Source: Hymenobacter setariae (GTDB taxonomy: Bacteria; Bacteroidota; Bacteroidia; Cytophagales; Hymenobacteraceae). From it: a stretch of 64,000 nt of DNA. A program made the position numbers and the translations under genes. The stretch lies in NCBI RefSeq assembly GCF_007713685.1, contig NZ_VMRJ01000001.1, positions 850,129-914,128 of the forward strand. The letters are read 5' to 3'. Shown here one piece after another: positions 1 to 29,989 of the stretch (its first letter is position 1; every line of letters starts with the position of its first letter). A model generated the notes under the pieces. That model saw only the letters and a list, made by a program, of their open reading frames with translations. It was not told where the DNA came from and did not search any database.

Positions 1-282
1 CGGCAGTTCGCGCTGGGCCAGGGCCGCATAGTACGCCGCCTCGGGCAGCGGGCCGCCCACCGGGCGCAGCGTCCAGCCGGTGCGCTGGTATACCACCTGG
101 CTCAGCCGGGCCACCTGGGGCACTTCCTCGCGGCGCAGCCCTAGGGCTGCCACCCCAGCCGCAAACGCCGGGCACGCCCGACGGTGCAGCAGCGCGTGCT
201 GGCGGTCGAAGAGCATCTTCCAGACCATGCCCGAGGCGGGCGTGGCAGGGTGGTGAGGGTGGGCGAGCAGGTGCAAAGTCAT
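1..282 (-). CDS. phhA: Phenylalanine 4-monooxygenase, N-terminal part (cut by window start)
   Basis: The frame is open from an ATG at 282 to the window edge (94 codons). Its order of features fits the N-terminus of bacterial tetrahydrobiopterin-dependent aromatic amino acid hydroxylases: a WKMLFDRQ segment, then RACPAF, then LSQVVYQRTGW and LRPVGG. The family converts phenylalanine to tyrosine in the cytoplasm with an iron and a pterin cofactor. The iron-binding histidines and glutamate lie beyond the window, so activity cannot be judged. The gene sits just downstream of a leader carrying a small ORF and an intrinsic terminator, which suggests its expression is attenuated. The family call is fairly firm; substrate choice (Phe, Tyr or Trp) is inferred from resemblance. 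Confidence 0.82.
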   Translation of the reverse strand, partial: MTLHLLAHPHHPATPASGMVWKMLFDRQHALLHRRACPAFAAGVAALGLRREEVPQVARLSQVVYQRTGWTLRPVGGPLPEAAYYAALAQRELP

Positions 283-310
283 GGTGCGTCGCGGGGGTGA
301 AAAGGGTAAA

Positions 311-345
311 AAAAAAGCCCGATTCCTGTCGAAGGAATCGGGCTA
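311..345 (-). terminator. Intrinsic terminator in the phhA leader
   Basis: Read on the minus strand, a perfect 12-bp stem (AGCCCGATTCCT pairing with AGGAATCGGGCT, 5-nt loop) is followed at once by a run of about nine T. It lies between the small leader ORF and the phhA start codon, so it would stop transcription before phhA unless another fold forms. Coordinates are good to about one base. Confidence 0.85.
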
Positions 346-478
346 AAGCTTAGTTTGAGGCTAGAAGGGAAACCATTTCTTTATCTCCCTGGTGGCCGGC
401 TATGCCGCACGATTCCGAGGCCCAAATTGGGTCGCTTAATCATTAGGCAATAAATGGTCGAGAAGCCGGTCATGTCGG
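346..478 (-). promoter_or_regulatory. phhA leader RNA, candidate attenuator
   Basis: Between the promoter and the terminator the minus-strand RNA holds a small ORF and several possible helices. One is ACCGGC near the 5' end with GCCGGC at about 391-400. Another is AGGGA with TCCCT around 364-390. The segment at 407-416 reads GGAATCGTGC on the minus strand and can pair 9 of 10 with GCCCGATTCC, the 5' arm of the terminator, so the two pairings exclude each other. I do not recognise it as a known riboswitch class. A stand-alone small RNA is the alternative. Confidence 0.5.
381..473 (-). CDS. Leader small ORF, 30 codons
   Basis: An ATG at 473 opens a 30-codon frame ending with TAA at 381. The peptide contains one Phe (residue 4) and one Tyr (residue 8) and ends in SRPPGR. 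There is no run of aromatic codons as in a classical phenylalanine leader peptide. The predicted transcription start is only a few bases upstream, so the ORF would be nearly leaderless. Codons for Gly-Ile-Val-Arg (residues 20-23) overlap the segment that can pair with the terminator arm, so a ribosome here could influence termination of phhA. It may instead be a chance ORF inside a structured RNA; codon-level conservation would decide. Confidence 0.4.
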   Translation of the reverse strand: MTGFSTIYCLMIKRPNLGLGIVRHSRPPGR

Positions 479-481
479 GGG

Positions 482-511
482 CAAATATACGAGGCTTTAT
501 AAATTGTGCAA
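482..511 (-). promoter_or_regulatory. Promoter of the phhA leader
   Basis: On the minus strand a TTG (511-509) is followed after exactly 19 nt by TATATTTG (489-482), a full match to the Bacteroidota primary-sigma pattern TTG-N19-TAnnTTTG. Transcription would start near 475-478. Confidence 0.75.
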
Positions 512-27955: not shown

Positions 27956-29989
27956 ATGCGCCGGCTTGGGTGGTCGGTTGCAGGCGGGTTGCTATTGCTA
28001 TCTACCGTTAGCCACGGCCAGGACGATGGCAGCGACGACACCACCAGCCACAAAGTGAGCGGCCCCATCAGGCCGGCCACGGCGGCCACAACCGTGGCAG
28101 TGGCGCCGGGCTATTTTTTGCTGCCCATTATGCCGGGCCAGCAGAACTTTCTAGCTGCCAGCATGGGCGAGCTACGGCCCAACCACTTCCACGGCGGGCT
28201 CGACATCAAGACGGCTAGCGTCATCAACAAGCCCGTGTACGCGGCGGCCGATGGCTACATTTCGCGCCTCAAGCAGTCGTCGTTTGGCTACGGCAACGTA
28301 CTCTATATCACGCATCCCAATGGGTTGACGACGGTATACGGCCACCTCAATGAGTTTCTGGACCCGGTGCTGACCGAGCTGCGCCGCCAGCAGTACGAAA
28401 AGCAGACCTATGAACTGGAGCTATTTTTCAAGCCCGGCCAATTTCCGGTGAAGCGCGGCGACATCGTAGCCAAATCGGGCAACACCGGTGGCTCGGCCGG
28501 CCCGCACGTGCACTGGGAAGTGCGCGACGGCCAGGACCGCCAGTTAAATCCCTTGCAGTGGGGCGGCTTTCCAGAGATACAAGACCACCTAGGGCCCATT
28601 TTACAAGCCTTAGCGGTGGAGCCGCTGGCCATCACGGCACGGGTGCGGGGGCAGTTTGAGCGGGCGGTGCTGGTGCCCAAGGCGCAGCCGCTGCCGGGTG
28701 CCAACACGGTGTTTCCGGATACTGTGGCGTGCGTGGGCCAGGTGGGCCTACTGCTGCAAGGCTTCGACCGGTTTGACCAGGCTTGGAACAAGAATGGCAT
28801 CCAGCGCGTGACGGTGCGCGTGAACGGGCAGCCGCACTACCAGCACGTTATTGACGCGGTGCCGTTTCCGAACGGCTCGCGGCAAGTCAATAACTTCGTG
28901 GACTACGCCTACCACATGCAGGCGGGCCGCATGCTGCAAAAGCTGTGGGTAGACGAAGGCAACGACCTGCCATTCTACACCCCGCCCGGCCTAGGCCAAG
29001 GCAAGCTAACGGTGGAGCCTGGCAAGGTGTATACTATTGAGTATGAGCTGGCCGACTCCTACAATAACAAGGCTACGGCGCGGCTGGTGCTGCGCGGCGA
29101 GCCCACCGAAGACTACGCCGCGCTTACCCCAGCCCCGGCCCCTACCCCTACTGCCAAGCCGCTGCTGCGCTACGACATCACGCGCAACCTGCTGCGCGCC
29201 GTGGTAACTAATGCGCCCCTCGACACCGCCGATGTGCCGGCCAACTTAATACTGCGCCGCAGCGGCCGCGAGCTAGCTCTGCGCCCCAGCTACCGCAAGG
29301 GCCGCGAAACTACCTACCTCTACGACCTGCGCGCTGGCCTGCCCGACTCGCTGGTTTTAGGGGAGGTGTCGAAGCGGTTCGACCGGCAAGTGATGATACC
29401 AGCAGGCCAGGAAACCAGCTACACGACGCCGCACCTCAACTTGGTTTTTGGGCCGCAAACGCTGTTTTCGCCGCTTTACCTGAGTACCGCATACCGCCCC
29501 GCTACCGCTGCCGCGCCCGAAACCTGGGTGGTAGGCTCGGCCCTCACGCCACTCTACCTACCGCTGCGGGTTACTCTCAAAACCACTACCCCACCCGCCG
29601 ACCGCGAGCGCACGGCCGTGTACAGCGTCACGGCCAAGGGGGGCCGCGCCTACGTGGGCGGCAAGTGGGACGAAAGCGGCCAGCAGGTGTCGTTCAACAC
29701 CAAGGTTTTTGGTCAATACCGCCTCTACACCGACACCAAGGCACCCGAAGCCCGCCTCCTAGGTAAGCCGGGCGGCCAGCTGCTGTTTCGGGTCGGCGAC
29801 GACTTGTCGGGGCTGGCCTCGTACCGACTTTTCGTGGGCGGGCGCTTCCGACTGCTGCGCTATGAGCACAAGAACAGCACGCTATTTACCGTGGCGAACG
29901 ACCCGAATGCCCCGGCGCTGCACGGCGCCGCCGAGTTGCGCCTGACCGACCAGGCCGGCAACGAGCGGGTTATTCCGCTGGCGTTGTAA
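27956..29989 (+). CDS. Secreted M23/LytM-type peptidase with C-terminal extension
   Basis: The protein has 677 residues. After a signal peptide (cleavage near SHGQ) and a linker, residues about 75-215 form an M23 domain with zinc ligands in NHFHGGLD and HVHWEV, and GLTTVYGHLNEF between them. The remaining 450 residues are beta-rich, with Ig-like stretches (TVRVNGQPHYQHV, VEPGKVYTIEYELADSYNNK). LytM enzymes cut peptidoglycan cross-bridges or control amidases; this long-tail form is common in Bacteroidota and the tail is uncharacterised. Both zinc motifs are intact, so it is probably active. The start is supported by the promoter just upstream. Confidence 0.88.
   Translation: MRRLGWSVAGGLLLLSTVSHGQDDGSDDTTSHKVSGPIRPATAATTVAVAPGYFLLPIMPGQQNFLAASMGELRPNHFHGGLDIKTASVINKPVYAAADGYISRLKQSSFGYGNVLYITHPNGLTTVYGHLNEFLDPVLTELRRQQYEKQTYELELFFKPGQFPVKRGDIVAKSGNTGGSAGPHVHWEVRDGQDRQLNPLQWGGFPEIQDHLGPILQALAVEPLAITARVRGQFERAVLVPKAQPLPGANTVFPDTVACVGQVGLLLQGFDRFDQAWNKNGIQRVTVRVNGQPHYQHVIDAVPFPNGSRQVNNFVDYAYHMQAGRMLQKLWVDEGNDLPFYTPPGLGQGKLTVEPGKVYTIEYELADSYNNKATARLVLRGEPTEDYAALTPAPAPTPTAKPLLRYDITRNLLRAVVTNAPLDTADVPANLILRRSGRELALRPSYRKGRETTYLYDLRAGLPDSLVLGEVSKRFDRQVMIPAGQETSYTTPHLNLVFGPQTLFSPLYLSTAYRPATAAAPETWVVGSALTPLYLPLRVTLKTTTPPADRERTAVYSVTAKGGRAYVGGKWDESGQQVSFNTKVFGQYRLYTDTKAPEARLLGKPGGQLLFRVGDDLSGLASYRLFVGGRFRLLRYEHKNSTLFTVANDPNAPALHGAAELRLTDQAGNERVIPLAL

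Follow-up and report, generated by a model that had tools for sequence, protein, structure and literature searches.

The start of a gene for a phenylalanine hydroxylase-like (PheH-like) protein lies at one end of a 64,000-nucleotide stretch of Hymenobacter setariae DNA, here called the window. It is preceded by a short open frame and a terminator, and the question is whether these elements form a switch and, if so, to which signal the switch would respond. An earlier note on the window had described a promoter box, a nearly leaderless ORF of 30 codons and a terminator followed by a T tract, and had proposed that a segment within the ORF pairs with the 5' arm of the terminator, in the manner of an attenuator or riboswitch. 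The described elements are indeed present in the window and recur across Hymenobacter. All parts of the leader, as well as the PheH-like gene, are located on the minus strand (Table 1).

Table 1. Elements of the leader and of the PheH-like gene within the window
Element	Position	Strand	Details
Promoter, Bacteroidota type	482..511	-	TTG 511-509, 19 nt, TATATTTG 489-482; read from sequence
ORF1, leader peptide, nearly leaderless	381..473	-	ATG 8 nt past box; 30 codons, MTGFSTIYCLMIKRPNLGLGIVRHSRPPGR
P0/S, predicted anti-antiterminator	396..469	-	Fold; 469-464/401-396, 449-446/406-403, 443-438/414-409
P1, hairpin within ORF1	421..431	-	Fold; 431-428/424-421; directly 5' of strand A
Strand A, antiterminator 5' strand	407..416	-	GGAATCGTGC
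P2, hairpin spanning ORF1 stop and ORF2 start	366..390	-	Fold; 390-383/373-366
ORF2, second tiny ORF	350..376	-	MVSLLASN; sequence
Intrinsic terminator	308..344	-	5' arm (A') 344-333, 3' arm 327-316, T tract 315-308
PheH-like gene start	1..282	-	ATG at 282; remainder outside window (L007 5425-6282)

Organization of the leader

The combination of TTG and TATATTTG, taken as a putative promoter of the Bacteroidota type, was not reported by a sigma-70 scan of the window. Strand A (416-407, GGAATCGTGC) is able to pair at 9 of 10 positions with the segment 343-334 (GCCCGATTCC) of the terminator 5' arm. When the sequence upstream was shuffled 100 times by mononucleotides, no shuffle equalled this complement. 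The pairing pointed out by the earlier note is real. In the predicted fold, strand A is held within P0/S. The fold of the whole leader is unusually stable (z -3.1, equalled by 2 of 200 shuffles), and the terminator (344-316) has 12 perfect pairs, followed by 8 T. At the gathering threshold, no Rfam match was found in the window or in the corresponding loci of seven relatives. The 11 matches with E values up to 10 in the window are of unrelated kinds, and no amino-acid leader, such as the Phe, Trp and His leaders of Rfam, is found among them.

The PheH-like gene is 285 codons long in total, and its ATG is separated from the end of the T tract by 25 nt, a distance which leaves no space for another promoter of the Bacteroidota type.

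Distribution of the leader

The gene product was matched in 119 of 120 Hymenobacter genomes, and the loci of 110 of them were examined, leaving out the nine lowest-scoring. L126 (no assignable start), L040 (contig end), L059 and L086 (start misplaced) were excluded from the terminator scan, and a hairpin followed by a T tract was picked, with no score threshold, in 105 of the 106 usable loci, on the wrong stem in L067 and L075; the locus without a pick, L139, contains no run of four T. ORF1 was found in 103 of these 105 loci, with a box of the TATATTTG kind 4-8 nt before its ATG, the box being a condition of the scan; in L080 and L092 it was missed by the regular expression and is visible by eye. 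In 100 of the 105 loci, at most 40 nt separate the end of the T tract from the start codon. The unit has a promoter and a terminator of its own, as would an independent small RNA or a gene for a small protein that ends at position 308, the PheH-like gene then being transcribed in some other way; the short distance to the start codon, without room for a second promoter of this kind, makes such a reading very improbable.

In 81 of these 105 loci, the best complement to the terminator 5' arm beat all but at most 5 of 100 shuffles (16 of 16 in clade 1, which includes the window, 16 of 35 in clade 2 and 49 of 54 in clade 3), and 79 of these 81 complements are located 58-81 nt before the terminator stem.

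In the multiple alignment A1, 57 of 58 dereplicated leaders were included (L067 was left out); 45 of these were used for alignment A2 and for the covariance model R1. At an E value of 0.01, R1 matches 119 of 120 Hymenobacter genomes, a figure that describes spread and not an independent discovery, since the model was trained on sequences from the same genomes. The genome without a match, G108, has its gene at a contig end, and G094 shows a weak R1 match and no gene match. In an order-wide draw of 291 genomes, strong matches outside the genus were limited to three genomes, all from the sister genus g5 (E values between 3e-10 and 8e-9). A g4 genome, G303, has a weak match of 27 bits directly upstream of a PheH-like gene, credited only because of this position. 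The pattern observed in the window is confirmed, and it extends far past the window, throughout the genus.

A second R1 match within the window (28045-28118, E 4e-5) falls inside an open frame of 683 codons and was taken as a chance match; R1 matches under about 40 bits, that of G303 included, accordingly prove little alone. Matches of 31-40 bits from the same genus (L164-L171, for example L164 1664-1828), several of them adjoining recQ, are probably ordinary terminators, since some had earlier been matched by the terminator part of the leader alone. Just one Hymenobacter genome contains a second strong match (G004:C87, L163 3368-3504). It was considered as a different gene under the same leader and rejected, as it appears by eye to be a decayed duplicate of the leader with a truncated PheH-like start. 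This duplicate is located upstream of an AraC-like regulator gene.

Pairing and covariation of the competing helices

The earlier note had called for an alignment of related leaders in order to reveal covariation, and this is seen in the A:A', terminator, P1 and P0/S helices. Over the 57 leaders of A1, paired cells amount to 78.3% for A:A', 87.4% for the terminator and 78.7% for P1. Cells with two-sided changes number 31, 24 and 32, respectively, compared with 14.3, 9.6 and 16.8 in shuffled alignments, and for A:A' none of 500 shuffles reached the observed value. Counted by base pair instead of by cell, such changes do not exceed those of the shuffles for A:A' (the observed number is reached by 207 of 500) or for P1 (139 of 500), and the covariation score of the terminator rises from 0.103 to 0.126 when slid by one column.

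As such shuffles ignore kinship, a test was added, in which duplexes formed with the leader's own partner strand are compared with those formed with partners from other clades. Own partners performed better for P0/S (-17.8 vs -13.9 kcal/mol), A:A' (-17.3 vs -14.6), P1 (-9.1 vs -6.8) and the terminator (-20.8 vs -18.2), in each case with none of 2000 permutations as good, and a pair of negative-control segments gave no significant difference. For A:A' in clade 2, the own partner is no better than strangers (-13.2 vs -14.5). The same test was used in place of RNAalifold within clades, which returned almost no P0 and no P0 consensus.

Single sequences illustrate the same relation. Nine leaders carry CCCGCTTCC in the 5' arm, and strand A is GGTAGCGGGC in three of them and a variant by one or two letters in four. 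Among the 38 leaders with GCCCGACTCC in the 5' arm, 11 have the perfect partner GGAGTCGGGC as strand A, and 10 of these 11 have an A.C mismatch inside their own terminator. Sequestration of strand A is modestly above that obtained with shuffled 5' parts (0.72 vs 0.57, 0.62 vs 0.48 and 0.66 vs 0.53 for clades 1, 2 and 3; 49 of 97 leaders tested).

Antiterminator and terminator are thus mutually exclusive and both covary, with the exception of the antiterminator of clade 2. The attenuator logic put forward by the earlier note gains support from the covariation of the competing helices and from conservation in the genus and in sister genera.

Coding properties of ORF1 and ORF2

ORF1 ranges between 27 and 34 codons. 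From its start codon to strand A, A1 contains 108 gap runs, every one of them 3 or 6 nt long, and gaps of 1 and 4 nt appear past strand A, which indicates that the reading frame is preserved as far as A and that the tails differ from clade to clade. Over codons 5-13 of the 58 dereplicated leaders, stops make up 15.7% and 6.3% of the two alternative frames; the ORF1 frame is free of stops owing to the way it was selected. The ratio pN/pS is 0.75 in frame and 0.92 and 0.90 off frame, suggesting that the peptide is hardly constrained. Concerning the codon-level conservation of the ORF that the earlier note had proposed to look for, it is the frame that is kept, and hardly the peptide. The leader therefore has a short 5' frame which is kept open, as expected for a ribosome-mediated leader-peptide attenuator.

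The residues encoded by codons 5-13 include Cys in 67, Phe in 57, Tyr in 23 and Trp in none of 103 leaders, and none of them is universal. A classical Phe or Tyr leader was dropped for the window copy, which has no run of either residue, in agreement with the earlier note. Cys was also considered as a control residue, being enriched 16-fold in codons 8-13 over the background of the gene product; it was rejected because 36 leaders have no Cys and the TGC codon also serves the pairing of P0/S. Control codons for the regulated amino acid are thus absent from the stall zone of the window copy and present in that of its paralogue (see below), and the window leader, which seems to work like a ribosome-mediated attenuator, was not filed as an amino-acid-specific one.

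Two other readings were weighed against these data. An RNA switch bound by a ligand or a protein, with no sensing by the ribosome, would agree with helices that covary and a peptide that is hardly constrained; we consider it quite unlikely, as no Rfam family matches, ORF1 is open where the other frames are rich in stops, gaps ahead of A always comprise complete codons and the leaders of the paralogue are rich in Tyr. The riboswitch named by the earlier note is likewise disfavoured, with no Rfam match and an open ORF1 pointing to the ribosome as sensor. An arrest peptide of the TnaC type, sensing a free amino acid within the exit tunnel, would provide a logic usable by a catabolic gene, and the motif RPxxGxG(L) recurs in many of the leader peptides. 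This motif is, however, encoded by P1 and A, so that RNA pairing explains its residues, and the C-terminal parts vary from clade to clade; little credence can be given to this possibility.

An ORF2, with an ATG near the stop of ORF1 and a stop before the terminator, is found in 85 of 103 leaders; a stop before the terminator is also encountered in 51% of cases when reading from an arbitrary position within this span. The ORF2 stop is located 8-10 nt before the stem in 62 of the 85 (TGA 45, TAA 21 and TAG 19 over all of them). In relatives ORF2 is often rich in Leu (MLLLL, MKPELL).

Tyrosine-rich leaders of the canonical paralogue

A second PheH-like copy is present in 40 of 120 Hymenobacter genomes. 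In order to compare leaders, the most Tyr-rich ORF starting with ATG within 330 nt upstream was taken for each gene: this rule yields 4-11 Tyr codons for canonical phhA copies and 1-2 for copies of the window type. Canonical phhA leaders proved to be Tyr-rich in 29 of 29 loci read, from four genera (for example YYYYY and RYYAYAYYAP). They include all 22 second copies read among the 40 two-copy Hymenobacter genomes (for example RYYYAATYYAP). In the sister genera g2-g5, 12 genomes were searched with an intact PheH and 8 hold one or two copies; 7 of 7 of these copies with an intact iron motif have Tyr-rich leaders, among which are NYYYYRP, AYYYYYRD, YSYYSYYYR, FYYYYPT and YYYYYPT. Three further intact copies, from g5 (L191-L193), have a leader of the window type with one Tyr. 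The opinion expressed in the earlier note, that the leader does not look classical, holds for the window copy and fails for its kin.

In Hymenobacter canonical copies, Tyr residues are located at about codons 7-14 and are followed by P1, a candidate A strand and the terminator. The antiterminator of these leaders was placed partly by eye; pairing of the 5' arm with ORF1 exceeds a probability of 0.3 in just 6 of 27, and of 6 leaders tried, 2 have an ungapped complement better than those of the shuffles. These candidate Tyr attenuators stand before canonical phhA at L176 6830-6980 (G041), L163, L204-L223, L194-L197 and L199-L201. One of the canonical copies with a Tyr-rich leader, L205 (G081), has an in-frame stop within the gene.

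In a maximum likelihood tree of 63 proteins (quick search, root unknown), the 28 genes with Tyr leaders, from four genera, fall on one side of a branch with an SH-aLRT of 99, and the 35 other proteins on the opposite side. That the window-type leader lost its Tyr codons, rather than never having had them, is the simpler reading, since the architecture makes sense with Tyr codons. Alternatively, the leader could be a relic, or a fixed partial terminator, allowing low constant transcription and no longer switching. The absence of Tyr codons and of any replacement control residue, as well as the weak constraint on ORF1 in frame (pN/pS 0.75), are in line with this reading, which we judge unlikely: the competing helices still covary genus-wide, and a fixed terminator would have no need of A, of P0 or of an open ORF1.

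Proposed mechanism and simulated ribosome

The best explanation of the leader, and in our opinion a probable one, is a three-state, ribosome-mediated transcription attenuator. From the parts observed, their conservation and covariation, and the Tyr-rich leaders of the paralogue, we infer the start site, the translation of ORF1 in cells, the switching and the signal as follows. RNA polymerase would start just before ORF1. With no ribosome present, the ORF1 RNA would fold into P0/S and P1, holding A, so that the terminator forms and the gene is mostly off. A ribosome slowed at about codons 5-13 would cover the 5' strands of P0 and S and free A, which could then pair with the terminator 5' arm and let the polymerase read into the gene. 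A ribosome sitting on A while the terminator is being made would again permit the terminator to form.

In canonical phhA, where the slow zone is filled with Tyr, the gene would very likely be switched on when charged tRNA-Tyr is low, which fits a hydroxylase that makes tyrosine. The window copy has no Tyr codons in this zone, and its clade and relatives share no conserved residue there; its input would accordingly be the general speed of translation or some unrecognised one; a general slowing of translation is our best guess.

The action of the ribosome was simulated on 54 leaders, at the stage before the 3' arm is made. In the absence of a ribosome, A:A' has a probability of 0.41; this rises to 0.51-0.64 when the A site stands 18-60 nt upstream of A and drops to 0 when the ribosome is on A. 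With the ribosome 24-30 nt beyond A the values, 0.46 and 0.39, are like those without a ribosome. Together with the permutations on P0/S, these values predict an anti-antiterminator that a stalled ribosome is able to open. At full-length equilibrium the terminator keeps the higher mean probability at all ribosome positions, even with a stalled ribosome, the probability of A:A' being at most about 0.2 over all leaders. Because of this result, and of the simulation past A, a kinetic race must be assumed.

Comparison with known systems

Leader-peptide attenuators are found at the enteric trp, his and pheA operons. The window leader resembles the enteric attenuators (see also PMC1183508) in its short 5' ORF, in the mutual exclusion of anti-antiterminator, antiterminator and terminator, and in a stall zone before the switch strand. 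It differs from them in that the window copy has no run of control codons, ORF1 is almost leaderless and extends past strand A, a second tiny ORF is found in most leaders of the window type, and no Rfam family matches at the gathering score. With the canonical phhA leader it shares an ORF close behind the promoter box, where this was read, and a terminator just before the gene, and with the Hymenobacter canonical copies also a control zone just before P1; it has neither their 4-11 Tyr codons nor their intact iron triad. The Salmonella mgtCBR leader (PMC3641672) similarly has two short ORFs, transcription attenuation and at least one input beyond the charging of one tRNA; its genes and structure are different, and its inputs (ATP and proline) are shown experimentally.

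Within the same phylum, leader-peptide attenuation before amino acid operons of Flavobacterium psychrophilum is inferred, as it is here, and not proven, according to the available text of PMC9723704; those cases are biosynthesis operons, and that text does not mention a hydroxylase. Small ORFs within long 5' UTRs are described for Bacteroides thetaiotaomicron (PMC7366714). In Shewanella, phhAB is reported to be under TyrR. Phenylalanine, phhA and words beginning with Bacteroid- are not mentioned in the available portion of PMC2965389. In the open PMC literature (subscription papers being outside this scope), no paper was found on attenuation with a leader peptide in Hymenobacter, on phenylalanine 4-monooxygenase in Hymenobacter, or on leader-peptide attenuation by tyrosine codons.

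The PheH-like protein and its genomic context

The product of the window gene matches Pfam Biopterin_H (8e-15, residues 19-192) and a PheH from the PDB (4e-20, alignment over residues 18-184), and its nearest named relatives are Hymenobacter records. At the positions of the iron ligands in the PheH alignment, it has S, R and E, both His being replaced, by Ser and Arg. In an alignment of 109 proteins, neither His is found in 17 of 17 proteins of clade 1. Clade 2 shows H-H-E in 36 of 36, and clade 3 H-H-Q in 51 and H-H-E in 5. In these 51 of the 56 clade 3 proteins, for example at L118 (HGVFGH ... VQFG), it is the Glu ligand that is replaced, by Gln; one g4 paralogue has Q and Q at the iron positions.

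Pterin-carbinolamine dehydratase (PF01329), the partner in pterin recycling, has no match in the genome of the window, and the same holds for 12 of 17 clade 1 genomes vs 8 of 103 others (p = 5e-8). The window gene, therefore, has the Biopterin_H domain of a phenylalanine 4-hydroxylase, and lacks the site of two His and one Glu as well as a match to the pterin partner. Yet five close pairs from clade 1 have dN/dS values between 0.12 and 0.17. Taken together, the clade 1 protein is probably a working protein, though not a working iron hydroxylase. The name phhA, used in the earlier note, is right as to family and misleading here, two of three iron ligands being lost. Overall, the interpretation given in that note is partly supported: the attenuator reading appears well supported by comparison, and the gene name is to be treated with caution.

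An attenuator architecture of the Tyr type, without Tyr codons, is therefore kept before a protein without the iron site of a hydroxylase. Tentatively, a tyrosine attenuator might have shed its control codons, retained the RNA switch and come to sense how fast translation runs in general, now driving an iron-less protein with a hydroxylase fold and another job, perhaps that of a regulator which binds aromatic amino acids. The two copies make up a natural pair, in which a similar attenuator occurs with control codons on an ordinary hydroxylase and without them on an altered paralogue, so that codon-free sensing of translation by a leader ORF could be tested by swapping a dozen codons. The comparison also carries a warning that genes which, like that of the window, may be annotated as phhA do not necessarily encode hydroxylases.

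No match to tyrA (PF02153) was obtained in 7 genomes, each of which holds a pair of phhA-like copies, and matches in G096 (two copies) and G006 (one copy) are weak. The tyrA match is thus absent or weak in 8 of 40 two-copy genomes vs 1 of 80 others (p = 6e-4). These losses fit a tyrosine-making role for the copy with the Tyr leader, and point to a Tyr-controlled phenylalanine hydroxylase in Bacteroidota. The one exception, and the complement beating shuffles in just 16 of 35 clade 2 loci, reduce our confidence in the attenuator reading.

As to gene neighbours, Pfam matches next to the clade 2 gene L177 include DAHP synthase, the alpha subunit of tryptophan synthase and a PALP enzyme, and one or more similar ORFs were recognized by eye near L163, L176 and L180 (clade 3). 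Beside the clade 2 gene of G006 (L179) and those of the window's clade, an esterase-like gene takes their place.
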